DNA from: Spiroplasma endosymbiont of Aspidapion aeneum
GTDB taxonomy: Bacteria; Bacillota_I; Bacilli_A; Mycoplasmatales; Mycoplasmataceae
Direction: 5' to 3'
Length of the DNA: 64,000 nucleotides
Assembly (NCBI RefSeq): GCF_964031045.1
Contig: NZ_OZ034994.1
Location: 1,054,001-1,118,000, forward strand
The translations under genes were made by a program, and so were the position numbers. Position 1 is the stretch's first letter; each line of letters opens with the position of its first letter. The notes under the pieces are model-generated. The model ran no database searches and was not told the origin of the DNA. It saw nothing but the letters and a program-made list of their open reading frames with translations. Of this stretch, positions 11,091-29,000 are shown one piece after another.

Positions 11091-11402
11091 TTACGCAATT
11101 TTAATTGAAATACTAACACCTTTTGGTAAATTAAGTCTTTGCAATGCATCAATTGATTGTGGTGATGTATTTTTTAAATCTATAATTCTTTGATGTGTTC
11201 GAATTTCAAATTGTTCACGGCTATCTTTATATTTATGAACTGGTCTTAAAATTGTAATAATATTTTTATGAGTTGGTAGCGGGATGGGACCAATTACTTC
11301 AGTTCCTGTAGATTCTGCTGCTGATATAATTTTTTTTGCAGAATTGTCGACCGCAATATGATCAAATCCTTTTATTTTAATTCTAATGTTTTGTTGACCC
11401 AT
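11091..11402 (-). CDS. rpsJ: 30S ribosomal protein S10
   Basis: First gene of the operon. The 103-residue product starts at MGQQNIRIKIKGFDH, chosen because AGGAGG lies upstream and the family begins there; an upstream in-frame ATG only adds leader sequence. IPLPTHKNIITILRPVHKYK and EQFEIRTHQRIIDL are the S10 signatures. S10 is part of the 30S head and, as NusE, of transcription antitermination complexes. Confidence 0.96.
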   Translation of the reverse strand: MGQQNIRIKIKGFDHIAVDNSAKKIISAAESTGTEVIGPIPLPTHKNIITILRPVHKYKDSREQFEIRTHQRIIDLKNTSPQSIDALQRLNLPKGVSISIKIA

Positions 11403-11548
11403 AAAACCTCCTTTTTTAAATACAACTTGTTTTAGTGTATTGTTAATGAACATACAAAATATACACGTGCTAATATTATTACATATTTATTAGTGAATTT
11501 CAACAAAAAAAAGGTTTATTTTCAAATTTTTTATTTTTTTAACATAAA
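11403..11548. other. Gene-free leader between rpsJ and the mobile element
   Basis: AT-rich leader of the ribosomal operon, holding its RBS and promoter. Nothing else is seen. The last five bases (ATAAA, 11544-11548) are repeated immediately beyond the other end of the mobile element. Confidence 0.6.
11476..11503 (-). promoter_or_regulatory. Probable promoter of the S10-spc operon
   Basis: On the minus strand TTGAAA (-35, 11498-11503) is followed after 16 nt by TAATAA (-10, 11476-11481); reading one base further gives TGTAATAAT, a possible extended -10. It lies about 75 nt upstream of the rpsJ ATG and no other gene start lies between. Assigned by eye only. Confidence 0.55.
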
Positions 11549-11587
11549 TTAGAGTGAACCCCAATTGGGACACTTTTTTAAAAAGTC
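11549..11587 (+). repeat. Left terminal inverted repeat of the phage/IS3 element
   Basis: The outer 16 bases (TTAGAGTGAACCCCAA) are identical to the inward reading of the right end at 28837. The next ~23 match at about 14 positions, including a shared AAAAAGTC. Form and sequence resemble ends of IS3/IS150-group elements. Confidence 0.75.
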
Positions 11588-11646
11588 TAGTGAAGTTATA
11601 AAAAAATCACTCAACTGTGCTTGTTTAAATAATACCACGTTAAATC

Positions 11647-11677
11647 AAAAAAGGGTTAAATTTTTATAAATTTAGCC
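11647..11677 (-). terminator. Rho-independent terminator after the transposase gene
   Basis: Minus strand: arms GGCTAAATTT and AAATTTAACC (one G-U pair) with a 4-nt loop, followed by a C and a T6 run. It lies about 30 nt beyond the transposase stop and inside the left repeat end. Confidence 0.65.
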
Positions 11678-11707
11678 ATAAAAAACAATTTTTTTGTTGA
11701 AAAAATG

Positions 11708-12829
11708 CTATATAGCATTTAATACATTTTTTAAGTGGAATTTAGAGTTTTTTTCAGCATTGTATCAACGACATCATTTAATGATGTCGATTATATATTG
11801 ATCTAAAGATTTATAATCATTATTATGTACTGTTCCTTTTTTCAATAATGCATGGAAACTTTCAATTACAACATTATCTGCACAACTCATATAGCGGCCT
11901 TGTGATATAATTAAATTGTATTTTTTACATAAATTTTGATATTTTTGTGATGAATATATTACACAATGATCTGAGTGGACTACAATTTTACTTTGATCAT
12001 TTTTTATTTGCCTAATTTTATTAGCAGCTGCATTTATGTTTGAAATTATTAATTGCATGTTATTTTTTCTACTAATTCTAAAATCAATAATTTCCTTTGT
12101 TGCTGCGTCGATAACAGTTGACATATATGCTCTTTTTCTATTTAGAATTAAATATGTAACATCAGTATATACAGTAGTTAATGGTTCCTTAATTTCAGAA
12201 TATTTTCGATTAACTAGGTCGGGAAATTGATTATAATTTATTTTTTTTCGTTTAGCCTTTTTAATCATTTTGATAACATAATTCGCTATTATTCCAAATT
12301 TATGCATTAGCCGTAATACTTTTTTATGATTTCAGATTATGCCTATTTTTGCTATTATTTTTGTTGCTATACGTCTGTACCCATATTGCTTTCTTGATTC
12401 ATCAAAAACCTCTTTGATTATCTTAATATCCTTTTCATCTTGAATTTGTCTTTTTCAACCCCTTTTTAAGAATTTAAAATATGCACTCTTAGTAATATCA
12501 AGTGCATTTAATAAATTTTTAAGCTTGTAATTTTTAGAATTTTGAATAATAAACTTGTATTTTTCAATCTTGCTATCTTTTTTTACAAGCGAAAAATTCT
12601 TATAAATTTGTAGTGATTGTATAGAGTCAAATTCTGTGTTTTTATAATTTCCACGAGAATTGTTTAATTTTCCTTTTTTAAACGAAGCAATTCAAGATTT
12701 AATTGTTGATCTATTAATGTTATATTCTTCGCTTATTTGTAATATGCTTTTTCCATTAAAAAATCACTTTACTATTTTTCTTCTAAAAATTGGGTCATAT
12801 GTTTTAAATTTTTGTCCTAAATTTGCCAT
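11708..12829 (-). CDS. IS3-family DDE transposase, OrfA-OrfB in one frame
   Basis: 373 residues when TGA is Trp. Residues 1-60 form an OrfA-like helix-turn-helix (FRRKIVKWFFNGKSILQISE, then YNINRSTIKSWIASFKKGK). Residues ~120-170 resemble the OrfB N-terminal helices (KQYGYRRIATKI). The integrase core has D223 (VYTDVTYL), D287 (VVHSDHC) and E323 (CADNVVIESFHALL); the last two are 35 residues apart, the DD(35)E spacing of IS3 elements. IS3 elements usually join OrfA and OrfB by -1 frameshifting; here they are in one continuous frame. GGAG lies 6 nt upstream of the ATG. The 3' end faces the left inverted repeat while its expected partner repeat lies 16 kb upstream. Catalytic residues are intact, so it may be active. 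Confidence 0.88.
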
Positions 12830-12844
12830 AAAATTCTCCAAATA

Positions 12845-12874
12845 AAAAAGGTTTCAATAAGTGAAACCTTTTAA
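12845..12874 (-). terminator. Terminator at the 3' end of the phage gene block
   Basis: Minus strand: AAAAGGTTTC, a 7-nt loop, GAAACCTTTT, then a T-rich run. It separates the last phage gene (lipoprotein) from the transposase, whose RBS lies directly behind it. Confidence 0.75.
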
Positions 12875-12894
12875 CATTTATATTATACCATAAA

Positions 12895-13488
12895 TTATAA
12901 CCAATTTGTTAGTGTTGCAGGAATGTAGTTAAATTGGTTTGATTTTTGGTCATTATCGGTACCATTAATTCAGTTACTATTACCTATAAAAATATATGTA
13001 TTGTATTTTTCGTTAAAATCCTTGAGGGTTGCACCACGTTTTAAAATGTCGCCATCTGCTATATAATCTTCTCAATTTGCTCCACCACTTGTTTTGGCAG
13101 ACCCGCTACCATATAAAACTCATTCATGGTTATTCTTATTATGTGATTCAACATCATCATTTTTATGGAAGAATGTAATCCAAACCTCTAATTTTTCAAA
13201 CAAATAAATAGTTTGATTATCAATACCATTAATTTGAGGAAATACATTCATACTATAAAAATTTCTTACCTTGCAATTTTTATCGTCACTTATAGTATTT
13301 GTAACCAATCACTGTGAATTAATCTCAAATTTAAGAGTTTTTGAAATTTTGTATAATTTATCTCAATCATCATTTGTTAATTCTGTTTTAATTTTAGGAA
13401 CATCAGTGTTGCCAAAACTACAAGAAATTGGTTTTGTTATCACTGAAAACAAACTTATCCCTAAAATAAAACTTAGCATTTTCTTCAT
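12895..13488 (-). CDS. Putative phage-encoded surface lipoprotein
   Basis: 197 residues. The N-terminus is a lipoprotein-type signal peptide (MKKMLSFILGISLFSVITKP) with Cys23 as the likely lipidated residue (PISC). The mature part is hydrophilic, rich in Asn, Asp and Trp (several TGA-coded), and not recognised as a family. It is the last gene before the phage terminator. Position and type resemble cargo genes that alter the lysogen's surface or block superinfection, but that is inference. The start is the only ATG before the signal sequence. Confidence 0.65.
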
Positions 13489-13520
13489 ATATCAAACACC
13501 TCAATTTTATTATATCAAAT

Positions 13521-15614
13521 CTATAAATAAATTTTTAAAAAAGCTATGTCCTGCTTGTTAATATTGAATAGTGAAATATTGTCTAATTCAAGCTCTTTTT
13601 GATTATTAGCTATATCATTGTATAATAATTTAAAATATCACAAACCAGAACCCCAAATACCACTTATCTCAAATAAAATAGGATTAATGATATTGTTAAT
13701 ATCAAAAATATAATTATTATTATCTTTGATTATACTATTTGTAATATTTCTTGTTAAAATTGGGTATTTTGTTCTACAGTATTTATCAGTTAGATCTATT
13801 TGAGATAGAAGCATATATTTAATAATATTAGAATCTGATAATTTTAAATCCTTGGGTTGTGTGCTAGCTAGTTTAGTTTCTTCTATACTTTTATTAATAT
13901 TCTCTCAATAAAATATTTGTGATTTATTATTAAACACATATTGTGAAGTGACAATGTTGTTTATAGGTTCTAAAATATATTTATCTGTTTTGTTTGGAAA
14001 ATTAAAGTATTTTGATCTTAATATAACTTTTATATCATTTACATCGCTAGAAGAATAATCCGAATTATAACCATCTCTTGTAAGAATAAATGTTCATATT
14101 CCAGAACCATTGTCAACATTTCCTATATCACCATTTCAAATAGGAGCTGTAGACATTTCAAAATAGTATGGTAACAATATTGTGTAATCATCATTTCCGC
14201 CATTTGCAATTGAATATGTACCATTAACATATTTGCTTAACATAACCTTAATTTTCTTATAATTTTTATATTGCTCAGATTCAATTATATTACTATATTT
14301 TTTTTCAAATGCAGCTTCTAAACCATCAACATAATCTGAAATATTTTTACCTTCAAATTGTTGCTTATAAAGTGCCATTTTATTTAACCCCTTAGATGAG
14401 TCGCCGTTAATATATCCCGCTCCTTTAAAATTGTTATTATAATTATATGTTGCTGTTAGTACTTCTTGTAACAAATGGTAAATTGCTGAATATTTATGAA
14501 CTACTTCATATTCTATTCTTGCATCTGTTAATGACGTTGGAGTCTTTTTCAATTTAATAACTTGTAATCCATCAGGTGATGTAGATGAATCATATACGTA
14601 GCTAACACCCGGTTTAATCAATCCATCTTCTTCATAATCTTCGCTACTTTGTTGAAAAACATAATAAACAGGGTTGTAACCAACTGCTTTTCAACTCCCA
14701 ACTTCCTTAGTTCCTTTTTCCTTATACCTTACTTGTATTGGATCAACATTAACTGAATCGTGGTCCACTATGTCATCTGCACCCAATAATGTTGATAATG
14801 AATTTTCCTCAATAAAATCCTTACAAGTTTCAAAATCTAAAATAAAGTCATTGAATAATCACAAATTTAAAAAATTTACCTCTCCACTTTCCAAAACTTG
14901 TATTGGATTCAACCAAAGCGGATAAAGCTTGTTTTTTGATGTTATGTCTGCAAATGTTTTGTTACCATCACTATCAAGCCCCAATATTTTAAATGAGTTT
15001 AATAAAAATGTGCCGGGTTTTTTAATTTCAATTCCAGTTACTGTTATGTCTTCTAATTGCTTTCCAATTCTAATAACTATTTGGTTACCATCTTTTGTTG
15101 TTCATGCGTTGATATCTACTAGATTCAATTCTTTCTCTTTAGATATAGAATCCGTTAAAAAACCTTTGTCTGTAATCGATTCAATAATTTTACCATATTT
15201 ATAAATTTGATCATCAGTTATCAATTCAACTTCAGAAACTAAATAAAGCTTATCAAATGACAAATTTGAAAATAATTTATCTTTTGATGTTATTGTTGTT
15301 GAATAAGACTCATAAACTGCTATTTCTCCATCAATATTTGACATTGCTTGCTTGGTGGTATACGCCATTTTTTTTGCTTGCGAAGCATTGACCACAAATT
15401 CGATTTTATCATCTGGATCTACAAAACAAATTTTTAGTGCATTTGGTGAATATTTAACCAGTTCTGAGTTGTCATTTTTAATAACATTCTTTAATGGATA
15501 CAAGTAAAATATAGCGTTTTGTGATGCTGTTAAATAATCTTCATCATTATTAATAGATTCATCTGCTGCCAATTTATCAAATTCATCCATGCCAATTTTA
15601 TTTCAATTTTCCAT
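13521..15614 (-). CDS. Large phage protein of unknown function, probably tail or baseplate
   Basis: 697 residues in one frame through several TGA codons. No signal peptide or membrane helix is seen. The sequence is hydrophilic, rich in Asn, Asp, Tyr and Ser with beta-type patterns, as in tail or fibre proteins, but I recognise no domain. The ATG shares one base with the stop of the 72-residue gene upstream (TAATG). Its place after portal and collar-like genes suggests a role in the tail or receptor contact. Function is not established. Confidence 0.7.
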
Positions 15615-15832
15615 TATATTCCTGCAAATTCTATTTTTTTGTTTTTAGAGTAATTGATCATGTTGAGAGCTTGCGCCACTCAATAAGCCTCAAGAGAAGC
15701 CCATCCATTTTTAATAACGATCTCCTCCAATTCTTTAAAAATTTTTTCTTTATTTTCTAACAAATGATTAAATCTATATTTTTTTAATTTTGAAATTACT
15801 TTATATCTTTTGTTTTTGTGAATTTGGTCCAT
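15614..15832 (-). CDS. Small phage protein, unknown
   Basis: 72 residues (MDQIHKNKRYKVISKLKKYR at the start), basic, mostly helical by eye, with a WASLEAYWVAQALNM segment that is intact only with TGA as Trp. It overlaps the preceding coiled-coil gene by 32 nt and the next gene by one base. Tight packing in the late operon supports it as a real gene. No family recognised. Confidence 0.6.
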
Positions 15833-16244
15833 AAATTTCCTCCATACTGGTGTTCGATATTGTTTTTAGTTGATAATCTAGTTCTGAATACGCTGCATTT
15901 GCTTTATACTCAATTTCTATATTTTTAATATGTAAATTGTCAATTTGTTCATCAATTATGTCATTTTTAGTGTTGATATTGTCAATTTCCTCATTAATTT
16001 TACTAATTACTGACTCAATTTTTTCCAATTGTTGCTCTAATTTGTGATTTTTGAAGATGATATTGGTTGTATTTTCATTTGATTTTTGGTTGCTATAGTT
16101 AACTCTTTCAATTAAAATATGACATTTTTCTTGTTCTAATTGCTGAAGCTTTCTAATTTTATCTGCCTTTATAGATTTCTTTTTGGGGTTAAAATATTCC
16201 TCTCTTAAGTGAATTTTATGATTATTCATATTCTCTAAAAACAT
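15801..16244 (-). CDS. Coiled-coil phage protein, unknown
   Basis: 147 residues. The start is placed at MFLENMNNHKIHLREEY, which has GGAG 5-6 nt upstream; the frame is open further but overlaps the upstream gene. Residues ~35-125 show heptad-like Ile/Leu spacing with many Glu, Lys and Asn (INEEIDNINTKNDIIDEQID), so a coiled coil is likely. It follows the collar/fibre-like gene and may be a fibre chaperone or structural rod; neither is shown. Confidence 0.6.
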   Translation of the reverse strand: MFLENMNNHKIHLREEYFNPKKKSIKADKIRKLQQLEQEKCHILIERVNYSNQKSNENTTNIIFKNHKLEQQLEKIESVISKINEEIDNINTKNDIIDEQIDNLHIKNIEIEYKANAAYSELDYQLKTISNTSMEEIYGPNSQKQKI

Positions 16245-16257
16245 AAAAACTCCATTC

Positions 16258-17835
16258 TTATTTAATTTTTTTATAGAAATGAACATATAAACCAGCTGGA
16301 TAGTTTTTTTCATTTCATCTATCATTATCTGATGAATAGTCACCAAAAATTCAGTTTGTTTGTTTAATTCCGCTTAAACTTTCTTGTATAGCAGTTCCAT
16401 GGGCTAAATGTGCGTTTGATTGGCCGGAACTAAGTCCGCCTAAATTAGAGGAACCATCTTGTATCTCATCTGAGTATACAACTTGACCACCTTGACTTGA
16501 ATAGGAAAAAAAATTTATATGGCTATGACTTACATCGGTTATTGTGTGGAGGTGATTGGCAACTCGTCCATTTGATTCGCCCACATGGCCAGGTGAAGAA
16601 ATCAATGTCCATCCATACCCATCATTAAAACTTGTATTAACAATTTCTCAATATTCAGGGTCTGGAGTTATAGATGTATCAAATGGCAATATAACACCAA
16701 TAGGTAAAATAACATCGATATAATTTTGTAATGTTAAATTGTTCATTGTGTCAATTTTAGTATTTTTAATCAAATTTACAAATGATGCATTTAATAAATC
16801 ATCAATTTTTTTGCTAACATTTTTTATAACATAATTAGTTAATGCGTCATTTAATGCAATTGCATTTATAAAATCGCTATCTTTTGCTAATATTGCTCCA
16901 GCTTGTTCGCTCAGCAACTTTTTAAATTCTTTATCAGACAAAATATTTTTCTTCAATAATTCTTGTAGATCTTTATTTAGTGCAACATTTTTAATGAATT
17001 GACTGTCTTTTTCTAATAATTTATCTATAGCATTTTCTAACGATGTTTGAAATTGCTTGTCATTGTCAAGCAATTCTTGTAATTTTATTTCCAACTTAGC
17101 ATTTCAATTTGAATTATTTAGTGCATTATTTTGTAGATTTTCATTTAAAATTTTATTTACTGATAGTCTTTCCTCTAAAGGAGTTTCAGCTATATCAACA
17201 AAATCTTTTATAAAATTGCTGTCTCTTTTAAGGGAATCAAATTTTTCAAGAATTTCAATATCTATTTCTTCATATATCAAATCCAATTCTGAATGAACCT
17301 CATTTTCAAATTCTTTTAATTGGGATAATAGCACAACATCATCATAATTTAAAGTATTTAAATATTGATTTACTTGTATTGGATCATTATATAAATTCAT
17401 AGCAGGTCTTATATTTGTTAATTCTAGAGATTTTAGTGCTGTTGGGCTAAAAATATCTTTGTAGTCACGATTATCATATTTATAGCTACTATTATAACTG
17501 TATCCGTCCGTATCACTATAATTAGTAACAACATTAGATTGAACCGGTAATTTCCCATATAGAATCGATGTAAATGTATAAAACAAGCAATTTTTTATCA
17601 TCCGCTTTAGTTTACTGTTTAAATTTGAAAAATTTACATGATCAAAGAAATTAATAAAGTACAAATTTATGCAGTATTGAATGTCAATTGTTATTGTTGA
17701 TCACATTTCGTCCAATGTTGAAAATTCATTCCTTCACTTTGACGGCAAACCTATTAATTTTTGAATTCCGTATCGATTCTCATTTAAATAGTCATCTAAT
17801 TTAAATCAAGGAGACTCATATTCTTTATTTATCAT
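16258..17835 (-). CDS. Putative phage tail fibre/collar protein
   Basis: 525 residues in one frame when TGA is Trp. The N-terminal ~190 residues are an unassigned domain. Residues ~190-370 are helical and Asp/Lys/Leu-rich with repeating LEKDSQFIKNVALNKDLQEL-type units. From ~378, PIGVILPFDTSITPDPEYW followed by GYGWTLISSPGHVGESNG resembles the tail-collar fold of fibre tips, and a His-rich stretch (HLHTITDVSHSHI) follows. The start overlaps the portal stop by 11 nt. Collar assignment rests on pattern resemblance only. Confidence 0.6.
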
Positions 17836-18955
17836 CTTTATTAACCTCTTTTTTTGTTGCTTGCAATGTTGTATTATCCAACGATTTTATGATGAAGCTT
17901 ACAAATTTGGAATATGGTATTTCAAAAATAATATCATTAATATTTTTAGATATGCCACTCATTTTTTCCAAAATAAAACAAACATTTTTGAATACATTTT
18001 CAAAATACATTTTATTAATAGCTAGCATGTCATATGCAGTTTTGTTGATCAAACCAATTTCTAAAATACTTTTTTGTGCAGAATCATTATCGTCATCAAT
18101 CATTGCTTTTAAAGATTTTTTAAGCAACAATTCAACATTTTGATTAAATGTATATATATCATTTAAATTTGTAGTTGATGGTGTATAAATCGACTTACTA
18201 GCACCACCCTCAAAATTACTACTATCAATATTAATTGTTGGTTGTTGATATTCTGCAATATCAACGTCATTTGATATTTCCCCGGATTCACTTATGTTTT
18301 CTTTTGCCTTTTTTTGTTGTGCATTCAGTAATTGATCTGGTAAAACATTAAATGACATATCAACCAATTTTGCAATATCACTAAAATTATTTAATCCCAT
18401 TTGCTGAGGGGATGAATTGATTATCACAACTGGAATGTATCCTGCCTTTTTTGGATTGAATGATGTTAAATAATTTTTTGCATAATTATTATCAAAATCA
18501 CATAAGATATTTTTATTTACTTTTGAACCATTTAAATTTAAAATCGTTGATTGCGGAACACCCTCAGCAATATTGTATTCAATAACAACCTTATATGTTG
18601 TTTTGCTTAATTCAATAGTATCGATTTCAACACAAATTTGGGTTAATTTATTTTGCTTCTTAAGTAACGTATAATTAATTATTTTTACAACTTCAATATA
18701 ATAACTATCCCCAAATTCGGAAATATGGATGGCATAATAATTATTTTGAAAGCCGTAAAAGAGCGCATTGTAGATAATGTCATACCAGTTACTGTTGTTA
18801 TTTTTTCAATTATTAAACACATCACTATTACACATTATATTATTAATATCAAACGAGTTTATACGTTCAACACAAATTTGATTAATTATGTCTTGTGCAC
18901 GTTTATTCTCTGGAAATCCATATCTGTTATTGATCATCATCCTATTTTTATCCAT
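17825..18955 (-). CDS. Putative phage portal protein
   Basis: 376 residues. The order terminase, then this gene, fits a portal, and the middle segment GYIPVVIINSSPQQMGLNNF, followed by DIAKLVDMSFNVLPDQLL, resembles the strand-and-stem-helix part of portal proteins. The N-terminal part has NRMMINNRYGFPENKRAQDI and a YAIHIS/YYIEVVKI strand pair. The C-terminal 120 residues are helical. Start: GAGGTG 4 nt before ATG 18955. Slightly short for a portal (usually 400-500). A candidate structured RNA lies directly upstream in its leader. Confidence 0.6.
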
Positions 18956-18973
18956 ATACACCTCAAATTATGA

Positions 18974-19164
18974 CGCTATCGTGTCACCCTTGTTTTTTAG
19001 GAAAATTTGATTCTCTTAAAAAAGATTGAGCAACTTTCTGTTGTTTAAGGGAACCTTTGACAAAAAAATAAATTTTTTTGCCGCTCCCCATACAACAAAA
19101 GGGCGGCAATGTTTTTTCAAGGAATAAAATTCCCATAAAACACTTGGTGACACGATGCGTGTTT
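18974..19164 (-). ncRNA. Candidate structured RNA (~190 nt) between terminase and portal genes
   Basis: A consensus promoter (19171-19199) predicts a transcript starting near 19164. Its first bases CGCATCGTGTCACC (19159-19146) pair with GGTGACACGATAGCG (18988-18974) in 14 pairs with one bulged A, closing a loop of ~157 nt. Inside are a GGAAT/ATTCC hairpin (19120-19132), a TTGCCGC/GCGGCAA stem (about 19109-19078) and a CAAC/GTTG hairpin. The segment is less AT-rich than its surroundings. It ends just before the portal RBS, so it may be a stand-alone RNA or a structured leader. A 73-codon frame (from 19205) also crosses it, but starts upstream of the promoter's start point. No known RNA family recognised. 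Confidence 0.55.
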
Positions 19165-19170
19165 GCACAA

Positions 19171-19199
19171 ATTATAACAAGAAATTTTCTAATAATCAA
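19171..19199 (-). promoter_or_regulatory. Strong promoter driving the RNA/portal region
   Basis: Minus strand: TTGATT (19194-19199), 17-nt spacer, TATAAT (19171-19176), with TG one base before the -10 (TTGTTATAAT, extended -10). It is the best promoter match inside the element and lies in the intergenic space between terminase and portal. Confidence 0.75.
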
Positions 19200-19225
19200 T
19201 AGCATTTTGATTTCAGGTTATTTTT
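19199..19225. repeat. 27-bp repeat, copy 1
   Basis: Matches 25617-25643 at 25 of 27 positions (ATAGCATTTT, one variable base, ATTTC, one variable base, GGTTATTTTT). This copy spans the end of the terminase gene and abuts the promoter at 19171; the other lies before the scaffold gene. Both stand at the head of a structural gene group. Confidence 0.6.
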
Positions 19226-21005
19226 CTAATTTTGTTGTGTTTACTATTTTATGAAGATTTGTTCATGAATATTCAAGCGCTGTTGTAGCGTCATTTGCAC
19301 ATCTTTTATCTCTTATTAATGAACCCTTAGAATTAATACAATTATTTAGTTCCTTATATAATAAAAGGCATTTTCTAATATTCATTGTGCATCTCCCGCT
19401 AGACAACAATCCCTTAAAATATGCTTGTCTTGCAGTAATATCTCATTTGTTAAGTACCGATTTGTGTTTTGCTCCTGGAAAAAATACTAAATTTAAACCA
19501 TACTTATCAGATAATAATTTTTGTATCTGGCGGGCAGTAACCTTATCTTGTAAGTCATATCAAACAAAAGGTTTTTTATTTATGTAATTTTTATATTCAT
19601 CATAAATATTAGATATAAATTTTGCAGCAGATTCAATTTTTTTGTCTTCTGAATCGACATAGTTAGATTTAGAAATTGCCCACCAATCAGCCAAAAAATA
19701 TATTTTCTCTCATTTTAAACCATTTCAATTTGATACTCCAGATACAGTGATTGCTGATTTTTTTGATTTAATTTTAGAAAAACCTCAATCAATTCCAATT
19801 GTTAAAATCGAAATTTCATTAGGTTCAGTTTGCCGTAAAATTACCGATTTTAAATCTGTTCTATAGGTAAATTTTGACAAATCACTAGATTCTAAAATTT
19901 GTCCTAAGGCGATAGTTCTATAATATGTATAATCTGTTGATTTCAATTTGCGCAAGTATCGTTCTGTAGCAGGATTCATGAATGCGTTATCCTTAGCTAA
20001 TCATGCAGATGCACGTACTAAAAATATTGACTCTTCATCTAAATTTGCTGTATATGTAAGAATATTTTGATTTAGTAAATTTTGTTCTAAAACATAACTT
20101 GTTGGTCAGATATCTTCAAAGTAACGTTCATGAAAGAAATTGTTTTCTTCTCAAGGATTCAATGTAAATGTTAAATTCACACCATTTTTATAAAAATATG
20201 ACTTTTCAACTTGTATAGAAATCTGATTTTCTTTTCCATCAGAAAAAATTGAAATTGAAGCATAAGAAGATGATGAATCATTTTCTAATATATAATTGCC
20301 ACCTTCATCAGCTTTAGGTATGTACGTACAAAATTCTAAAATTGGCTCATCATTAATAGTATATTCTCCACGTATGGCAGAGCCAAGAAGCATTTGAATA
20401 TTTGAATAAATTTCCTCGTCGCTTTCCTCAATAATATCTTTTGCTGGTGATGACATTTCATCTGCCCAAATATCCCCGATGCCGCCGACTTCAAATTCTT
20501 TACCTAGTTGACTATCTGAGTATTTACCTATAGAATCAAATAAAATAACTCTTTTATTTGGGTGAACTATTTTATTTTCTATCTTATTTTCTCCATAAAT
20601 TCATTTAAAGGCATGAATTGATGTTTGTGTTAAATCAATATCATAATTTTTAAGTAGCATATTAGTTACCTTTTTCATTGTAACAATTGTCGTTGATAGA
20701 TGTGTTGATTTATCCTTTCTCAAGATGATTCCGTTCCAATCTGTAAAATTACATAGTTTAAATAAAAAAATTAAGCATTGTGAATATGTTTTAAATGTTC
20801 ACCTTGCTGTTTCTGCAGCTCTTGTTGTAGCCTTTGTGCATAGTCACGATCTATATTGTCATGCTAGAGAATCAATCAAAATTGGTCATGTAAATCCATA
20901 GTTATCATTTGTTATGTTAAATTTTGTGCAAGTTTCTTTTGAAACTTTAAATTTTTTTGCTTTTGCAATTTCGCTTTCAGTCAATTTTTCATTTATATTT
21001 TTCAT
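19218..21005 (-). CDS. Phage terminase large subunit with altered Walker A
   Basis: Packaging motor ATPase and nuclease, 595 residues. Nuclease domain: D406 in ILTIGIDWG, then FVWYDLQDKVTARQ, and D572 in CANDATTALEYSW, the standard acidic positions of the RNase H-like fold. ATPase domain: Walker B-like IGDIWADEMSSP (D182, E183). The expected P-loop corresponds to ATTRAAETAR (59-68); where relatives have T-R-S-G-K-T this has T-R-A-A-E-T, so the lysine is Glu65. I checked the reading frame there. Start ATG has GGGAGG upstream, directly behind a terminator hairpin. No small terminase was recognised. Confidence 0.85.
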
Positions 21006-21017
21006 TATGCCTCCCAT

Positions 21018-21043
21018 TTAAAAAAGAGCAATAATGCTCTTTT
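21018..21043 (-). terminator. Terminator between the membrane-protein gene and terminase
   Basis: Minus strand: AAAAAGAGC, ATTATT loop, GCTCTTTTTT. It stands 13 nt before the terminase ATG, after the 151-residue gene. It would limit readthrough from the capsid genes into terminase, or be overcome by antitermination. Confidence 0.75.
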
Positions 21044-21065
21044 TAATATATTGATAATTTTGCTT

Positions 21066-21521
21066 TTATTCTGATGGTGTAACAATATCGTTGATTGATC
21101 CAACTTTATTTAAATGCTTGGCTTTTTTTGCAAACGAGTCTAATGTGTTGTTTGCTTTATTATGTTCAAAGATAGCATTTTTTAATTTTTCTTTTGTTTG
21201 CTTTTTATATTCTTTTGCGGATTTGTGATCTTGAATATCAATATTTATTATTCTATGTCCTAGCATGTATTTTGCTTGTAAACCTTTTTCTAGTTCAAAA
21301 TTATCTATTTTTTTTGAAATTTCATAAGAAATAAATAAAAATGATAATGTTATTATAATAGTAAATATAATGTTTGTAATCATTATATTTGTGATTGACA
21401 TGTTTTTTATTGCATCAATTTTATTAAAGAAAAATGAAAATAATATTGACGTTCCTAATGCTAGTAGAATTGGTAATAATTTAAATAAAATTGTGTTTCT
21501 AAATTTTTTGTTCTTGTTCAT
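21066..21521 (-). CDS. Phage membrane protein with two transmembrane helices
   Basis: 151 residues: basic start (MNKNKKFRNTI), two hydrophobic helices at ~13-30 and ~43-65, then a hydrophilic C-terminal half with a charged helix (EYKKQTKEKLKNAIFEHNKA). It overlaps the preceding membrane-protein gene by 23 nt. It could be a holin-like, injection or host-membrane protein; no family is recognised. Confidence 0.6.
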   Translation of the reverse strand: MNKNKKFRNTILFKLLPILLALGTSILFSFFFNKIDAIKNMSITNIMITNIIFTIIITLSFLFISYEISKKIDNFELEKGLQAKYMLGHRIINIDIQDHKSAKEYKKQTKEKLKNAIFEHNKANNTLDSFAKKAKHLNKVGSINDIVTPSE

Positions 21522-22011
21522 GGTTTTTCTCTCCTCTTTTTATTTTAAAAATTTTATTTTCTGTTAATGGCAAATATGCACAAGTAATCAATATTATTAT
21601 TGGGATTATTTTGATTACTGCATGTGTTATAAATTTAAATTTTTTAGATGGTACAAATTTAGGTAGATTGTGTATTGATGTTCCTGCCACAGCTGGTACA
21701 AAGAATAATGTTCCCTTCTCCACTCATGATGGATTTGATCTATGCAATCCTATGCTTAAGAAAGGCATATTATTTTGTAAAAAGGGAATATGATAGTAAA
21801 AACCTCATAATGTTGTGATAATAGCAATTAATAATCAATTAATGAAATTAATATTAGATAATTGATTTTTTCTAATTTTGTAAATTTTTTGATCATCAAT
21901 ATCTAATTTTGATAATTTGTAATCTTCATATTCATTGTTATATCTTCGCCTTTGTTTTGTTCAGGGAATATATACTGTTCATCCATAATCCTTTATGTTT
22001 GGTCTTTCCAT
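21499..22011 (-). CDS. Phage membrane protein, unknown
   Basis: 170 residues through several TGA-coded Trp codons. A charged N-terminal region of ~50 residues (MERPNIKDYGWTVYIPWTKQ) is followed by hydrophobic segments at ~60-77 and ~130-150. AGGAGC lies 5-7 nt before the ATG. It is placed between a 568-residue protein and a second membrane protein. No assignment possible. Confidence 0.6.
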
Positions 22012-22023
22012 TAAAGCTCCTTT

Positions 22024-23730
22024 TTACCTAATTTTTCTAAAATTCTTATTTCCATATTTTCTACGAATTTTCTTAACCTTGTGATTTGTTACAACTCTTA
22101 AAATTTGAGAATTTGACTTTTTAGAAATTATTGATCTAGTAATTTTTTTTGCTAGTGGACTCAAGAAAAGAATAGATAGTATTTCAACCTCTAATTTTCT
22201 TTTCGATTTTGAAATTACATCTTCTTGTATTGTTGGTGCAACACCTTCTTCCTTAAATTCATGTAGTTGTTTTGTATATTTTTTGTATAATCTATAAGTT
22301 TTGATTCCATCCCTTATAAAGGAAACTATGATTGGTGGCATAAATTTTGCAATTGATGATAGTCCAAAAAAATTTAAATTATACCCCATTTCTAATTTAG
22401 CTTTGTAATATTCTCCTGCATTATGCTTTAAACAATTTGCAACTCACTCATTAAACTCAAACTTGTCTCAATAAAATGTGCGTGGCTGATATTTAGAATT
22501 TTGAAAATAGATCATTACAATGTAAGATTCATCAATCATTGCTTTTACTTTATAACCAAGGATTCAAGTTGAATCTACAGGAATTAGCAATTTTGAAGCA
22601 TCCTTTTCAATATCTCCAGCAATTTCAAGCTTATTAATTAATTTGATTTTAGAAAAAATATTTTTAGATATTTTATAGAATTTGGTTTTTTCTACTTTTT
22701 CAATAATTTTTTCAACACCTTTTTCAACTTGATGCATGATGACTTCAATAACTGTTTTAGCAGCTTCAACAAAAATTTCAACAGGATTAACTTTTTTTAT
22801 GATTTTATTCATTTTCTTCCAATATTTATTTAATTTGGTTAAAAATGAATTTTCTATAATTTTTGCCTGTCGAATAGAATAAAGCGACCATATCAATTTT
22901 GCAGATTTATTTCCATTAGTTAATTTGCTTGTGTTTGCTATTTTATCAAAAAAATCATCACTTCTTAAGTCAGATATATTAAATTTGCTATCATCTAAAA
23001 TTTTATAAGCTTCATCATAAAATTGCTTTTCTACTTTTGAAAATAGATTTGGTGACACATTCCTTAAGAGATCATTAATTTTTAAAAATTTCTTTATATC
23101 AGCATCAACAATATCTCTACCCAATCTTATATTTTTATACATTTGTGATAAAGCATTTTTTTTAGTTAAAGTTGAAATTAATGCCAAGGATTGTGGTTTT
23201 GTTACACCATCAAAAAAATCATAAATATTTTTTCCAATTTTGATTTTATTGCCTTCTAGGGTATTTCCTAGTTTACTTAAATTTTTAAATTCCTCTGAAG
23301 AAATATCTAAATCCTTAAAAAGACCTGTTTTGTTAGCATTTTTTAAAATTTGAGACAATTTTAACCCTTTTGCAGAGGCAGAAAGGGCTGCTAAGAATGG
23401 TAATGAGTTTAAGAGGGTTGTATATTTTGACGTTGAATTTGTTAAAGCATCATAACCTTGATTAATTCCAAATTCTGTTGATGCTGCAAATGTTGTTGAA
23501 ATTGTCGATACAGTAAATTCAGAAAATCCAATTTCAGCAAGACTAGCAGCAGCTCATTCTTGTCCAAGTCCAGCGGCAATTGATGCAACAACTGCAACAC
23601 CGACAAATTTTAAGATTGATAGTAACGTTGAAGAGTTATCATTGCTTGATTGTTCAGCAGTGATATTTGATAGCTTTAAATTGTTGGTTTTAACAGCGTT
23701 TTGTGAAGCCACACTAGTTCCAATTGACAT
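22024..23730 (-). CDS. Phage protein of 568 residues, unknown, possibly a virion or ejected protein
   Basis: One frame across TGA codons. Residues ~1-35 are polar, then ~37-105 are Ala/Ser/Gly-rich and hydrophobic (FVGVAVVASIAAGLGQEWAA), like membrane-penetrating segments; the remainder is Lys/Ile-rich and helical with a very basic C-terminus. It directly follows the capsid gene, where head-completion or ejection proteins are often found. No domain recognised, so the role is a guess from position. Confidence 0.65.
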
Positions 23731-23736
23731 TAATTT

Positions 23737-25131
23737 TTAAGCTTTTTTAGTATCTTTTGCTTCGGCTTCTTGTTTTGCTTTTGCTTCGGCTTCTTGTTTT
23801 GCTTTTGCTTCGGCTTCTTGTTTTGCTTTTGCTTCGGCTTCTTGTTTTGCTTTTGCTTCGGCTTCTTGTTTTGCTTTTGCTTCGGCTTCTTGTTTTGCTT
23901 TTGCTTCGGCTTCTTGTTTTGCTTTTGCTTCGGCTTCTTTTTGCAATCTTACACTTTTTAGTGAAAATACTACATTTAAACTACCTGAATATTTAGTTGT
24001 ATTTTTAGCAGAAATTTTTGCACCAGTATCAGTAATTGATGCAATTAAAATATCACTAGTAGTTAAATTAAGCGAATTTTTTGTATTTATTGCCTCTAAA
24101 ATTGTAGTTTCAGTTTTATCTAAAATTTCTCCCAAATTTAAAGTAGTAATAATACTGCTTAATTCAACAGGTTTACTTTGGGTTGATATTTTGGCATAAA
24201 ATACTTTTAATGGCTCTATTAAACAAACATCATATCCATATGCCTCCTCTATTATATCAACATTTCCTTCACCATTACCAACACCATTTTTTCCAGCACG
24301 CAATGGTGTATGGACTCACTGCAACGCTTTAAACGGCCTTGTTAATGAATTCATTTCAACCCCACAAACATGTACACCATCTCCTAATAATGCGATTTTT
24401 TGAATACTTCCTGTTGGTGAAATTGTTGTAACCTTTTTGGGAATGGCTATATATGTTAGTCCTTCAAGGTTGGTATACATTCCTGTTGGTGCAACTCCAA
24501 CACCATTGAGGACGTCTTCAATTTGATTAGTAGCTCCAATAGTCAATTTTAAAGTATCTCTTATCGAGCGTAAAAATTCCATCGAACAAAATAAGATCAA
24601 ATTTTGAATATTTATTCCTACTTCATAACAATAATCGATAATGTTATCGTGTAAACTTAAAGCGTCCTTAGTTATATCAAAGCTGTTATTTATATCAATT
24701 AAAATGCCTTCATTTTGGATCATATCTAAAATTGCTTTTCTTTTTAATTGCACTTCTGTGTTGGATAATTCATCCAAATCAGCAGCTATTAATTCGGGTG
24801 TTAGGTTTTCTAATGGTGTATATTTTCTACCAAATGAAAAAGCCTTATCAATGTGAATATATTTTTCTTCATATTCTGGCATTGAATATTCAATAATTTT
24901 TTTGGTATCAGTCAAGAAATTATCCCCAATACCAACTTTGTATTTTATCGGTTTTTTTCTGGTAAATCTAGTGTTTCTATCCTTTACAATTTCAAATGGG
25001 AAATAAACTTCTCAACCCATATTCATGGGGTAGACCACCCTGTATAAATTATTTATAACTTCTGATCTATCAGTATCATTATTGATGTCAAAAAAACCAT
25101 TTTGATTTTTAAATGTTTTAAAAATATCCAT
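23737..25131 (-). CDS. Putative major capsid protein with heptad-like repeat tail
   Basis: 464 residues. It follows a typical scaffold gene by 3 nt, the usual place of an HK97-type capsid gene. The central part (FDITKDALSLHDNIIDYCYE, YTNLEGLTYIAIPKKVTTIS, RPFKALQWVHTPLRAG, EEAYGYDVCLIEPLKVFYAK) is consistent with that fold, though the call rests mainly on context. Residues ~300-395 may be a surface domain. From residue 398 to the end runs a low-complexity helix of seven EAEAKAKQ units (24-bp DNA repeats). Such a long charged helix at the end of a capsid protein is unusual. Confidence 0.7.
23760..23938. repeat. Seven tandem 24-bp repeats in the capsid gene
   Basis: The plus-strand unit is TTCGGCTTCTTGTTTTGCTT plus TTGC, nearly identical in all seven copies and in frame, each coding EAEAKAKQ. 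The high identity suggests recent expansion and predicts copy-number variation. Open frames on the plus strand here are by-products of the repeat. Confidence 0.85.
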
Positions 25132-25134
25132 TTT

Positions 25135-25563
25135 TTACTCCTTTCCAAGTAATCCCGCAGGATCTGCAGGATTAAATTTAGCTTTATTAACTTTATTTTC
25201 CTTAATATCTATTTTTTCTAAAATATCATTTTTTATAGAAAATAAATTCTTATATGTTTCAATCACATTTTTAGAATTTGATACATCAATATCTAATTTT
25301 TTTATCAAATCAATTTGATTATTGTTATGTTGCAAACCAGCATTACTTAAAATATTGGATATTTCATTAGAAATTTTATAATCCTTTAATTCGATTATTT
25401 CTGCTTGTGATTTAGTTATGCGTTTTCTGATAATTTCATCCAATTCTTGCTGAGTAAATTTGCGCTCGATATTTATGCTATTTTTCTCATTTTGTGATAA
25501 ATTATCTTTTTTTTGAGATTGCTGTTCAGTTTCAGCGTTTTCCTGAATTTGTTTTTCTTCCAT
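25135..25563 (-). CDS. Phage capsid scaffolding protein
   Basis: 142 residues, Glu/Lys/Gln/Asn-rich and helical. The segment FTQQELDEIIRKRITKSQAE is the hallmark pattern of Firmicutes phage scaffold proteins (a TQEEvdeiv..Rl motif followed by coiled coil). Start chosen at MEEKQIQENAETEQ because GGAGG lies upstream; the open frame extends 20 codons further but overlaps a terminator. Directly upstream of the capsid gene. Confidence 0.75.
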   Translation of the reverse strand: MEEKQIQENAETEQQSQKKDNLSQNEKNSINIERKFTQQELDEIIRKRITKSQAEIIELKDYKISNEISNILSNAGLQHNNNQIDLIKKLDIDVSNSKNVIETYKNLFSIKNDILEKIDIKENKVNKAKFNPADPAGLLGKE

Positions 25564-25596
25564 AATATCCTCCTTGACGAGTAATTTGAGAATAAC

Positions 25597-25626
25597 AAAA
25601 AATGCTAAATTTGTAAATAGCATTTT
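25597..25626 (-). terminator. Terminator between the early-type genes and the scaffold gene
   Basis: Minus strand: AAAATGCTA, 10-nt loop, TAGCATTTTTT. It lies 34 nt upstream of the scaffold ATG and divides the presumed early block from the morphogenesis block. Confidence 0.65.
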
Positions 25627-25643
25627 AATTTCGGGTTATTTTT
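25617..25643. repeat. 27-bp repeat, copy 2
   Basis: Second copy of the repeat at 19199-19225 (25 of 27 bases). It includes the 5' arm of the terminator hairpin and the stop of the OB-fold gene. Confidence 0.6.
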
Positions 25644-26013
25644 ACTTTTGATTTAACAGCCGACGCCTTTTTTGATTTTGTTTTGACATATATTTATTTT
25701 CACCAGGTTCTAAAGAAATAATTTTAGTTACGTTAATTGCTACAAAACTAGTTCATGTCTTAAAATTTGTTGAAATAAGTAATTGTCCCTCTACATTGAA
25801 ATAATTGCCTGGTTTTGCTTTTTTTGCAATTTTTCATAATTCTTTGTCATCAAATTGTAAGAACAAATATCCACCTTTAAAAGTTACCTTTATTCTTTTG
25901 CGGTCAACAGTAGAGTTACCAAATTTAACGTTTGCAATTTCTGGATAGCTATACACCTCAACTGCTAAATTGATGTAATTTGGGTACGCCTTTTTAAATA
26001 ATGTATCCTTCAT
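25642..26013 (-). CDS. Putative OB-fold single-strand DNA-binding protein
   Basis: 123 residues. Strand-rich pattern with IKVTFKGGYLFLQFDDKE, then GNYFNVEGQLLISTNFK and TSFVAINVTKII, which resembles the G-x-x-V-x-V-x-G-x-L and terminal strand of SSB proteins. The tail is basic (KQNQKRRRLLNQK), not the acidic tail of host SSB. The start ATG is set by TAATG overlap with the small zinc-finger-like gene upstream. Placement beside a resolvase and a methylase fits DNA metabolism. The SSB call is tentative. Confidence 0.5.
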
Positions 26014-26159
26014 TATTTTTTTCCTTTCATACATATCTTATTAAGATTAAAATATAATAAATTTTCAAAGCAGTTTCTACAAAAATAAATACCTTTTTTG
26101 TATTCTAATAAGTAATTTTTTGTGTATCTATTTTTACATAAAATACAAAATTTATTCAT
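26013..26159 (-). CDS. Tiny Cys-rich phage protein (zinc-ribbon-like)
   Basis: 48 residues with two CxxC pairs at Cys5/Cys8 and Cys27/Cys30 (FCILCKN ... YFCRNCFEN), a plausible zinc knuckle. Its TAA shares a base with the ATG of the next gene. Too short to assign to a family; small zinc-binding proteins of this kind are common among phage early genes. Confidence 0.6.
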   Translation of the reverse strand: MNKFCILCKNRYTKNYLLEYKKGIYFCRNCFENLLYFNLNKICMKGKK

Positions 26160-26170
26160 TTTTATTCTCC

Positions 26171-26380
26171 TTAATTCATATAAAATTCCTCAAAACAATA
26201 GCAACAAACTATAATTTCAAAAAATTCTCCATTAACATAATGCCTTTCTGCTCCGGATGGACTATATCCAAGACCCAAGCAATAAACATTAGCACAGGGT
26301 ATAATATCCATTGTTCTCATTTGATTAGGATGATTGTGCATTAGTTTTGGATATTCTCTTCCTGTAAATCTGTCTCTCAT
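26171..26380 (-). CDS. Small Cys/His-containing phage protein
   Basis: 69 residues (MRDRFTGREYPKLMHNHPNQ at the start) with Cys29, Cys34, CCYC near the end and several His; possible metal-binding protein. Its ATG overlaps the stop of the upstream 47-residue gene by one base (TAATG). No family recognised. Confidence 0.55.
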   Translation of the reverse strand: MRDRFTGREYPKLMHNHPNQMRTMDIIPCANVYCLGLGYSPSGAERHYVNGEFFEIIVCCYCFEEFYMN

Positions 26381-26523
26381 TATAAAATTACTTCTTGTGC
26401 CTTTAATAAAATTCTAATGGCAGCATCTATAATTATATTAAAATCAAATTTGTGATTTACCATCTTAGAATTTAAACCTTGTAGTTTTTCTATTAATTTT
26501 GTGTATTCTTTTTCTCAATTCAT
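26380..26523 (-). CDS. Very small helical phage protein
   Basis: 47 residues (MNWEKEYTKLIEKLQGLNSK then a helix ending RILLKAQEVIL). The third residue is a TGA-coded Trp. GGAG lies ~8 nt upstream and the stop is coupled to the next gene by TAATG. Kept because of these signals in a packed operon; function unknown. Confidence 0.5.
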
Positions 26524-26559
26524 GTTTTTTCTCTCCTTAAATTTCTTATTTTCTTACTT

Positions 26560-27345
26560 CTAATAATTTTTAATAAATAATTCCTTTCCTAATTTACAAG
26601 CTTTTTGCTTACTATTATTTGTCATCGTATATTTTCATTCTCTTTCAACAATGTTGAACTTTTTAAATTTTTTCTTAATATTATCACTATTATTTATAGA
26701 CAATAGAAATTTGCCACCATCTCTATCTATATTTGTTACCAAACAAAGTAAGTCTGATGAATTTATATCATTATATTTATATATTTTTGTTTCCACATCA
26801 AAATACGGTGGGTCTAAATATCAAAATTTTTTGTGTTCATATTCCTTAATTTTGTCATAAAAGAAAAAACAGTCTCAATTGCTAAACTTTATTTTATCTC
26901 TATTTTGATAGATACACAATGCACATTTTTGTATTCTTTCAAATTTGTTAATATTTCAATTTTGCTGTAATCTTTTTTGTGTCCATGTAGATTTCGGCAG
27001 ACCATTAAAACCTAAATTATTATTAATTAAAAATTGTATATATTTTTCTGATAAACGACAAATAAGATCTAAATTTTTCAAATTTATATTTGGGTAAAAC
27101 GAATATTCATTTAAATTTACCTTTGAAATATTTGTTCAAAAACACATAAGTTCACTATTTTTGTCATTAAAATAATACTTTTTAAACAATCCTTCATTTA
27201 AACTATTAAGCCCAACACTACCCCCACCAAAAAATGGCTCATGGTAGTACATTTCAGATGTGTTACTTGGAAAAAATGATTTTATTAAATCTCATTTTTT
27301 AGATTTTCCACCAGGTCAAGTTATTGGTGAAATTGATTTAGCCAT
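26560..27345 (-). CDS. Dam-type (D12 class) adenine-N6 DNA methyltransferase
   Basis: 261 residues in one frame through many TGA codons. N-terminal WPGGKSKK (10-17) is the Dam-family start motif, EPFFGGGSVGLN (36-47) is the AdoMet-binding loop, and DPPYF (178-182) is the catalytic motif IV. Dam enzymes usually recognise GATC; that specificity is likely but not shown. No restriction partner is adjacent, so it is probably a protective or regulatory methylase of the phage. Confidence 0.85.
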
Positions 27346-27377
27346 TTTAACCTCTTATTCTATTTTTTTTATAGAAA

Positions 27378-27845
27378 TTATAATCAATATTTTTTATTAA
27401 TTTTTGCACGCCCATAAAAGTAGATAATTATAGCATCCAGTTCATGTTGATTTATTTTATTTTTATTATAATAAAATCCCCTTTTTGCCTTATATTCCAA
27501 ATTTGGAATATTTTTTTTATTACCTGCAATCATTTTTCCTATTTTTTTGATCATAAATGATGTTACTTCGAGTTTATATTTATATTTAATGTTTAATGCT
27601 CCAATTAAATAAGCTAGATGTACAAGATCGATATTAGTTTTTTGTTGCTTTTGAATTTTATGTAATCCTTCAAAAAATAAGATTGATGTTCTTTTTTTTG
27701 ATAGATAATTTTTAATAAAATTGTAATGATCAAACCAATTTTTAGCAGAAAAACTAACAATATTTTTACCATCAAAAATAGCTGTAGTTCCTGTTCCAGA
27801 CAAGTCTAAGCCAATATAGCCTATTTTTTTGTTGGGTGAATTCAT
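27378..27845 (-). CDS. RuvC-like Holliday junction resolvase/endonuclease
   Basis: 155 residues. RNase H-like motif order: D14 in YIGLDLSGTGTTA, E59 in ILFFEGLHK, and HELDAIIIY near the end (H134, D137), matching the acidic sites of RuvC-type enzymes. The last two codons follow a TGA-coded Trp. In phages such enzymes trim branched DNA before packaging or act in recombination. Start overlaps the end of the previous gene by 25 nt. Confidence 0.7.
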
Positions 27846-28123
27846 CTTATTCCTGCTATTTTTAAATTTGCAAAAATTATGTCTGTTAAATTAAATGGTA
27901 TATCTAAATCAATATTTTCATAAATTAGATATTTATTGCTTTGAAGGTATTTATATTCATCATATAAGTATTTATATTTTGCAGGTAATTCTATAAAATC
28001 ATCAAAAAGCTTAAAATGCTTATTAAAAATTTTTTCAAAAACAATAAAATATATTTTTGTGATCTTGTTTTGATAATCATCAAAAATAAAATCAATTGTA
28101 TAAATATAAATCTTAATCCTCAT
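27821..28123 (-). CDS. Small phage protein, unknown
   Basis: 100 residues (MRIKIYIYTIDFIFDDYQNK at the start), rich in Tyr, Lys, Ile. Start taken at the ATG inside GAGG-ATT overlap with the previous gene's stop, a tight 11-nt overlap. It reads through a TGA at 27842-27844 and ends with WIHPTKK. Size and place suggest a partner of the resolvase; nothing more can be said. Confidence 0.5.
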
Positions 28124-28448
28124 AAGCCTCAATAAATGACTTGTTTTCGATGGAATTTTCCTTAGCAACTTTTTTAAATTGATTTATTAGCTGAATTGCA
28201 TCGTAGATATTAATAATTTTTCTGTCCTGATTATATTCTAGATATTCAATTTGCTCTCCCGTTTTGTAATGGTAAAATGGAATTTCAATTCCAAAGTAAT
28301 TATAAAATTGACTATTCTTGTAGTAATTTTTATTGAATCAAAAAATATTATCCTCGTTAAAAGGTGATCGTACTCTGAAGGCGGTTTTATTAATATTTCA
28401 TTTTATGAAGTTGTTTTTATGACATCATATTATCTTATTTTTTTGCAT
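28113..28448 (-). CDS. First phage gene, unknown
   Basis: 111 residues (MQKNKIIWCHKNNFIKWNIN at the start), rich in Asn, Lys and aromatic residues, with a GIEIPFYHYKTGEQIEYLEY stretch and a helical C-terminus. AAGGAG lies 6-7 nt before the ATG. It is the promoter-proximal gene of the leftward block. No family recognised; all Trp codons but none other are TGA. Confidence 0.55.
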
Positions 28449-28712
28449 ATAATCTCCTTGATTTAAATCTTTAATTAAATAAACTATAATTGATAATAAT
28501 AATAGATTTTTTAATTAAATTATTTTTATTTATTTACTTTTTATAATTTCATACGAAATTATTAATCTAAGAATTTTAAAACATAGATTTAAATCACGCA
28601 TAAAGGCAAAATAAAATTACAATATATTGCTTTTTTGGTATGTTAAAAAATTCTATTTCTTAGATAATCACATTTATTTTTGCTCAACCGGTTGCTTTTT
28701 GCTGAACTCTTC
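28449..28712. other. AT-rich control region upstream of the phage genes
   Basis: No gene is seen. It holds the leader of the first phage gene. A 9-bp inverted pair ATCTAAGAA/TTCTTAGAT lies at about 28565 and 28659, spaced ~85 nt, which could be operator sites. TTGCCT with TATGTT 18 nt downstream (minus strand, around 28605-28580) is a weak promoter candidate. Confidence 0.4.
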
Positions 28713-28784
28713 TTATATTTTAAGAGAAGCTTCTAAATTCGCACAGATAAAAGCTTCTCTTAAAATATAAAAAAAGTGCGAATT
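28713..28784. repeat. Two interleaved inverted repeats (pseudoknot-like)
   Basis: Plus strand order: arm b 28713-28732, arm a 28736-28744 (AATTCGCAC), arm b' 28751-28770, arm a' 28776-28784 (GTGCGAATT). The b pair is 20 bp perfect (core TTAAGAGAAGCTT), the a pair 9 bp perfect; spacers are 3, 6 and 5 nt. A further AATTGT-CAC-ACAATT palindrome follows at 28781-28795. Lies 53 bp inside the right end. Confidence 0.8.
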
Positions 28785-28798
28785 GTCACACAATTTTG

Positions 28799-28837
28799 GA
28801 CTTTTTGAAACGGTCTACTTTTTGGGGTTCACTCTAA
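28799..28837 (-). repeat. Right terminal inverted repeat of the phage/IS3 element
   Basis: Read inward on the minus strand it starts TTAGAGTGAACCCCAAAAAG, identical to the left end for 16 bases and similar for ~23 more. Outside it stands ATAAA, matching the five bases outside the left end. Confidence 0.75.
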
Positions 28838-29000
28838 ATAAAAATGTATTTGAAACCAATATTTACAATATGAAACAAGATACAAAGAAACATTTCAATT
28901 TTAAATGCAATAATATATATATTGTATAGATATTATGCATTATAATTATCAACGAGTCATACTCGCTATATAATTTCAACTATTTATTTTTTTATTAATA

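Follow-up and report, generated by a model that had tools for sequence, protein, structure and literature searches.

Can a tailed phage live in its host chromosome by means of the enzyme of an ordinary insertion sequence (IS)? This question is raised by a 64,000-nucleotide stretch of DNA (the window) from the Spiroplasma endosymbiont of Aspidapion aeneum, a mollicute that reads TGA as tryptophan. The window corresponds to positions 1054001-1118000 of a 1.21-Mb single-contig genome (G000). An original prediction, made from the letters of the window, described a phage genome packaged as an IS3-type transposon. Our analysis indicates that the segment 11550-28836 (17,287 bp; coordinates are those of the window unless another sequence is named) very probably represents a small tailed phage in prophage form, apparently complete, which integrates by its own IS3-family transposase with the terminal inverted repeats as attachment sites. 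Repeats exactly bound the phage genes, a transposase and a target duplication accompany them, and the same anatomy is found in four other phages.

Ends and transposase of the element

The original prediction started from 16 identical terminal bases in inverted orientation, 17.3 kb apart. The exact inverted repeat TTAGAGTGAACCCCAA is indeed present at positions 11549-11564 and 28822-28837, and is the longest of only three exact inverted repeats in the window having at least 14 bases, a G+C content of at least 0.35 and a separation of more than 500 bp. Repeat length alone is not decisive, since AT-rich exact inverted repeats of 16-22 bases also occur in this 28% G+C DNA. The longest of these, the 22-base AAAATAAAAAGAATGAGAAGCC (positions 42229 and 58118, 15.9 kb apart), lies in surroundings where we saw no mobile genes. 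In the 1.21-Mb genome, the 15-base end is found in exact form at the two ends of the unit and nowhere else. The weaker similarity proposed for about 23 further bases is borne out by the alignment of one end against the other: the outer 45 bases score 48, against a mean of 11 (standard deviation 5) and a maximum of 31 for 2000 shuffles. The exact repeat, its uniqueness in the genome and this alignment together define imperfect terminal inverted repeats of about 40 bp, of which the outermost 15-16 bases are identical: the left one, on the transposase side and beginning with TAGAGTGAACCCCAATTGGGACAC, at 11550-11588 (plus strand), and the right one at 28798-28836 (minus strand).

The pentanucleotide ATAAA borders both ends as first read, and had been taken for a 5-bp target duplication. 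This reading assumed one extra terminal base. Because the homologous elements described below (sister phages and solo IS relatives) begin with TAGA(G), the unit is better delimited as 11550-28836, and the 5-bp duplication is replaced by a 3-bp duplication, AAT, with its left copy at 11547-11549 and its right copy at 28837-28839. The combination of terminal inverted repeats of about 20-40 bp with a 3-5-bp duplication, which characterizes IS3 elements, is found in the window, in the sister phages and in the solo relatives.

The transposase, expected to be a single intact DD(35)E enzyme beside one end, is the last gene of the unit and forms a single open frame of 389 amino acids (aa) on the minus strand (11708-12877, with a possible internal start at 12829). 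It carries HTH_28, HTH_21 and rve domains, passes the NCBIfam IS3 model with 199.8 bits (cut-off 160), and exhibits the catalytic triad D239/D303/E339, with a D-E spacing of 35 and a lysine at +7. The usual IS3 layout consists of two overlapping frames joined by a programmed frameshift, whereas the window enzyme is encoded in one fused frame. Its gene follows those of the phage directly, in their orientation and almost without a gap.

The insertion site lies just upstream of rpsJ (11091-11550), with which the S10 ribosomal protein operon begins. The prophage may cut this operon off from its promoter, or provide one. Inside the right end, the non-coding leader contains a strong inverted repeat able to form a hairpin (28706-28777), possibly a terminator or a regulator of read-through into the phage.

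Sister phages and solo insertion sequences

Relatives were collected by a transposase search in 60 genomes of the family and by a hallmark-protein profile in 320 genomes of the order. The original prediction had called for homologous phages at different sites, and four were found, in four other species, each with an IS3-type transposase in the same slot, terminal repeats of its own and a 3-bp duplication. The phage of genome G027 (L146 and L147) encodes a transposase 42% identical to that of the window, and exhibits the ends TAGAG[T/C]GAACCCATAAATTTGACA and the duplication GTA. It interrupts the last codon of a phosphotransferase system (PTS) gene, so that the interrupted gene ends with ...QLGIEWTHKFDS and a stop; when the flanks are rejoined with one GTA, the gene ends with ...KKQLGK and a stop, the same as in related species. 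The phage of G040 (L207) has the ends T[A/T]GAC[T/A]GAGTTT and the duplication CTT, the IS3-type phage of G042 (G042b, L208) has the duplication AAT, and the 17.4-kb phage of G004 (L224 and L227) has the ends TAGTGTGAACCCC and TAAGGTGAACCCTG and the duplication CAA. With AAT in the window, all five IS3-type phages carry a 3-bp duplication, an outcome that we estimate to be very unlikely by chance, even allowing some choice of register. The transposase is a single fused frame in G027, as in the window, and two overlapping frames in G040.

The solo IS relatives of this group measure about 1.2 kb and have the ends TAGA[CA]TG.ACCC. Their duplications measure 3 bp in 11 copies, none of them from G047, and 4 bp in all three G047 copies; for 12 of the 26 solo IS pairs the duplication is absent or shorter than 3 bp. 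Transposases of this IS3-type group also occur in G052 (L149 and L150), with a restriction-modification cluster beside them and a ParA gene in the vicinity. Clear solo-IS ends were not seen nearby, and these loci are perhaps other large cargo elements.

A composite IS, or a phage that simply landed inside an IS, was examined and rejected, as there is neither an inner end nor a solo copy of the ends. No third copy of the end exists near the transposase within 3 mismatches. The original prediction would have fallen with a separate IS carrying the right end and its leader; a search of the genome found none, the right end matching only itself. For the left end, a single decayed relic was found besides the end itself. 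Since the repeats occur solely at the two ends of the unit, the phage did not land inside an IS. The relic (L002, G000:C1:523761-524409) is a decayed IS3-type transposase with one recognizable end, and adjoins a repeat-rich surface protein gene.

Similarly, the phage might have inserted in some other way into a resident IS3, or an IS might have jumped beside a phage end, the repeats then being split IS ends. IS3 elements of the same group are indeed present in related genomes, and the relic is a decayed relative within the host genome itself. However, no third end-like sequence is found by the transposase start, no solo copy of the right end exists, the transposase trails the phage genes on their strand with almost no gap, and four sister phages share the layout with end sequences and 3-bp duplications of their own. 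We consider this explanation largely refuted and highly improbable. The proposal that the phage integrates with an IS3 enzyme is thus supported, because four sister phages repeat the anatomy elsewhere and the inner IS end is absent.

Exchange of the terminal transposase

The slot occupied by the IS3-type gene is filled differently in other members of the lineage. In the first relative examined (L048, from G042a), it holds a UPF0236 protein of the transposase family of mycoplasma integrative and conjugative elements (ICEs; NF046004). The L048 prophage is decayed, and automatic searches for its terminal repeats therefore yielded AT-rich noise only. Its products include an AAA+ ATPase with matches to IstB/DnaA models (L048:5565-6116), which might assist transposition in the manner of MuB or IstB. 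An ICE/Mutator-type transposase is the last gene also in phages of Spiroplasma phoeniceum, S. poulsonii and other species. The ends of these Mutator-type phages bear no relation to those of the IS3 type, and the duplications identified in seven copies measure 8 bp (TAATTTCT, AAAAAAAC, AGAATTCT, GTTAACAA, AACATTTA) or 9 bp (TTGCATTTA, CAACAGAAC). For one copy, an empty site in the same genome coincides with the rejoined flanks at 300 of 300 bases; another copy sits in an IS of which an uninterrupted copy exists elsewhere, the comparison showing one gap of a single base in an A-run at the junction. The genome of S. phoeniceum PmM2021 (L097-L108) exhibits 24 capsid-search matches to the lineage, many of them inside, or bearing, other ISs.

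A third type is found in G308 (L214) and G305 (L215), where the transposase is IS481-like (the G308 match lies below the model cut-off). In both, 18-bp direct repeats border the phage, their sequence differing from one copy to the other (ACAAAATATAGTTGTTAG, ACAAAAAATTTTAAAATA); as a target duplication this is unusually long. Sequence comparison thus indicates that the lineage swaps its terminal transposase among IS3-type, mycoplasma-ICE/Mutator-type and IS481-type enzymes. A change of enzyme type goes along with a change of end sequence and of duplication length. This joint switching points to the terminal transposase as the enzyme that integrates the phage, and is our best evidence for it.

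On a phylogenetic tree of the hallmark protein, the IS3 label changes four times (three changes being forced by supported branches) and the Mutator-type label five times (three forced), long branches making the exact placements uncertain. G042 alone holds one phage of each of these two types. The transposase tree is too poorly resolved to show whether the enzymes of the IS3-type phages are monophyletic. These phages suggest a wider scheme, which we put forward with some reserve as possible but somewhat doubtful: the small tailed phages of the Spiroplasma order may have no fixed integrase, a terminal "transposase socket" being repeatedly refilled from unrelated IS and ICE families, and copy-out would both integrate the phage and yield a circular template for replication and packaging.

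Gene content, proposed life cycle and kindred systems

All sizeable genes of the unit are open and lie on the minus strand, with the transposase last, and distant relatives preserve the same gene order. The set of phage genes that had been predicted is confirmed by curated models for two members, the terminase large subunit (19218-21017; Pfam Terminase_3, 28.7 bits, cut-off 23.2), which has relatives in the phages of G042, G027 and S. phoeniceum, and a Dam-type adenine methyltransferase (26560-27345; Pfam PF02086, 74.4 bits, above its cut-off); the capsid, portal and scaffold genes are recognized by weak matches only. The major capsid protein (23737-25131) has relatives in many Spiroplasma genomes. 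Its low-confidence structure model (pLDDT 44) matches mostly phage capsids in the PDB (T7-like, phi29, P22; best E-value 3e-3), suggesting an HK97 fold. The end of the gene (23757-23990) encodes a (KQEAEAKA)n tail of about eight near-identical repeats, predicted to form a single long helix. The model of the probable portal protein (378 aa, 17825-18961) is likewise of low confidence (pLDDT 46); of the nine PDB entries that match it best, nearly all are portals or contain a portal within a neck, connector or vertex (best E-value 3e-3), the portals matched being those of SaPI1, phiCD508, T7, SPP1 and lambda. Judged from these models, both identities are likely. The probable scaffolding protein (25135-25623) exhibits weak PHROG scaffold matches and adjoins the capsid gene.

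A 155-aa protein (27378-27845), first read as a resolvase, has no match above cut-off among curated models and no PDB chain. Its GLDLSGTGTTAIF motif suggests a RuvC/RNase H-like fold, and relatives occupy the same position in L048 and L049. PDB sequence searches with the terminase, portal and RuvC-like proteins gave nothing useful. The lineage hallmark protein (568 aa, 22024-23730) is found by profile A2 in 28 of the 320 genomes of the order. Starting from the right end, the remaining genes encode a 111-aa open reading frame (ORF), the first gene (28113-28448), a 115-aa ORF (27821-28168), small ORFs of 69 aa (26171-26380) and 64 aa (26013-26207), a conserved early protein of 130 aa with a relative in L048 (25642-26034), membrane proteins of 170 aa (21499-22011; 32% identity to its G027 counterpart) and 151 aa (21066-21521; relative in L048), an 85-aa ORF (18948-19205), a 525-aa protein with a Gly/His-rich C-terminal part, probably a tail or fibre protein (16258-17835), a coiled-coil protein of 181 aa partially matching an L048 ORF (15801-16346), a 72-aa ORF (15614-15832), a conserved phage protein of 697 aa with BLAST relatives in L048 and in the G027 and S. 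phoeniceum phages (13521-15614), and a probable lipoprotein of 197 aa (12895-13488); L048 also has a lipoprotein-like gene before its transposase. No tail-tube or tape-measure gene is recognized in the unit, which suggests a short tail. In agreement with the original prediction, no site-specific integrase is found among the unit proteins scanned.

The IS3 elements studied so far move by copy-out via circles (PMC3219604). By analogy, the phage transposase would pair the two ends, nick one of them and join the nicked end to the other, giving a figure-of-eight. Replication would resolve this into a circle with abutted ends, which would either re-insert at a new, little-selected site or feed replication and packaging by the phage terminase. 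Excision of the window phage as a circle may be expected on the same analogy. A Mu-style cycle would instead consist of repeated chromosomal transposition and packaging from integrated copies, with no circle. The presence of a transposase, the lack of a recognized polymerase or helicase in the window phage and the multiple copies of some relatives, such as those matched in S. phoeniceum PmM2021, are compatible with such a cycle. The multi-copy relatives, however, bear the other transposase type, and their extra copies may stem from reinfection; the studied IS3 enzymes work through circles, and among the window proteins scanned no ATPase besides the terminase, and no MuB-type partner, is recognized. 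A Mu-style cycle is therefore rather unlikely.

It is also improbable, to our judgment, that the phage is dead or has been domesticated, the unit being now a large transposon that has lost the ability to form particles and whose phage genes are passive cargo of the transposase. Such a state would agree with the single genomic copy and the decay of many relatives, but the predicted genes of the window phage are all open, including those for terminase, capsid and portal, and the gene order is conserved in distant relatives.

Several observations weigh against integration by the phage's own IS3 enzyme. A single 3-bp duplication is weak evidence in 28% G+C DNA, with a chance expectation of about 3% per copy, and its register is picked by homology. 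The duplication being weak for any one copy, the case rests on the five phages jointly. The transposase of G004, and possibly those of others, is split over two frames or broken, and the Mutator-type copies of G014 and G025 have both ends with no clean duplication. The capsid and portal assignments come from low-confidence models. The window phage has only one copy in its own genome.

Mu-like phages (proposed Saltoviridae) possess a MuA-type transposase with an ATPase partner, genomes of 36-39 kb and 5-6-bp duplications (PMC8705779). The window phage has in common with them a predicted tail, probable integration by a DDE transposase, a short duplication and the absence of a recognized site-specific integrase. 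It differs in its IS3-family enzyme, its 17.3-kb size, its 3-bp duplication and the lack of a recognized ATPase partner, and does not belong among them. A closer parallel is the Faecalibacterium phage Lagaffe, an active 48.3-kb myovirus with an IS30 transposase, for which virions have been shown (PMC5883640). As in the window phage, the presumed integrase of this tailed phage is an IS-family transposase, so that there is precedent for a tailed phage recruiting an IS enzyme. However, Lagaffe is a large myovirus with an IS30 and not an IS3 enzyme, and no transposase-swapping lineage is reported for it. With IS3 insertion sequences, the unit shares the transposase domains, DD(35)E, terminal repeats and 3-bp duplication. 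Their solo forms are about 1.2 kb, whereas the unit encloses 16 kb of phage genes and has a fused transposase frame.

Filamentous Spiroplasma phages (SpV1 group) carry IS-type transposases on small single-stranded DNA genomes. They resemble the window phage in being integrated, in the same hosts, by a recruited IS transposase, but are without the terminase, capsid shell and portal that its genes are predicted to encode. SpV3-type spiroplasma phages are short-tailed, of similar size and from the same bacterial group. They represent a plausible virion type for the window phage; no sequenced relative was found. Mycoplasma ICEs (ICEA) have a p-MULT5 DDE transposase as the last gene beside one inverted repeat (PMC3942029, PMC6030558, PMC7466169). 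They are also large mollicute elements with a terminal transposase, the family of which is carried by the Mutator-type relatives of the window phage, but they possess conjugation genes and no phage genes, whereas the window phage has an IS3-type enzyme and no conjugation gene recognized in the unit. The consulted passages of the mycoplasma island review and of the p-MULT5 paper do not describe phages with such transposases.

The terminase and capsid of the lineage have no match among the 50,697 phages of INPHARED, and terminase/capsid scans of viral contigs returned little or nothing, with one 6.6-kb fragment. A scan of genome contigs was similarly poor in matches, and the relatives were obtained from searches of whole genomes and from a single profile scan. 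The original prediction knew of no described tailed phage of this form. This holds for the literature searched (subscription papers lying outside it) as regards tailed phages of IS3, IS481 or Mutator type and transposase swapping within a lineage; it does not hold for IS recruitment as such, given the IS30 precedent of Lagaffe. The main point is the exchangeable transposase.

These results imply that tailed phages beyond the Mu group run lysogeny on ordinary insertion-sequence enzymes, and that in one lineage the integration enzyme was replaced by unrelated transposases while the capsid and packaging genes persisted. How a transposon becomes the integration module of a phage can thereby be tested directly. 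They also connect phages with the transposases of mycoplasma conjugative elements, and provide a likely explanation of how so many prophage copies came to lie in the genomes of Spiroplasma, which include plant pathogens and male-killing insect symbionts.

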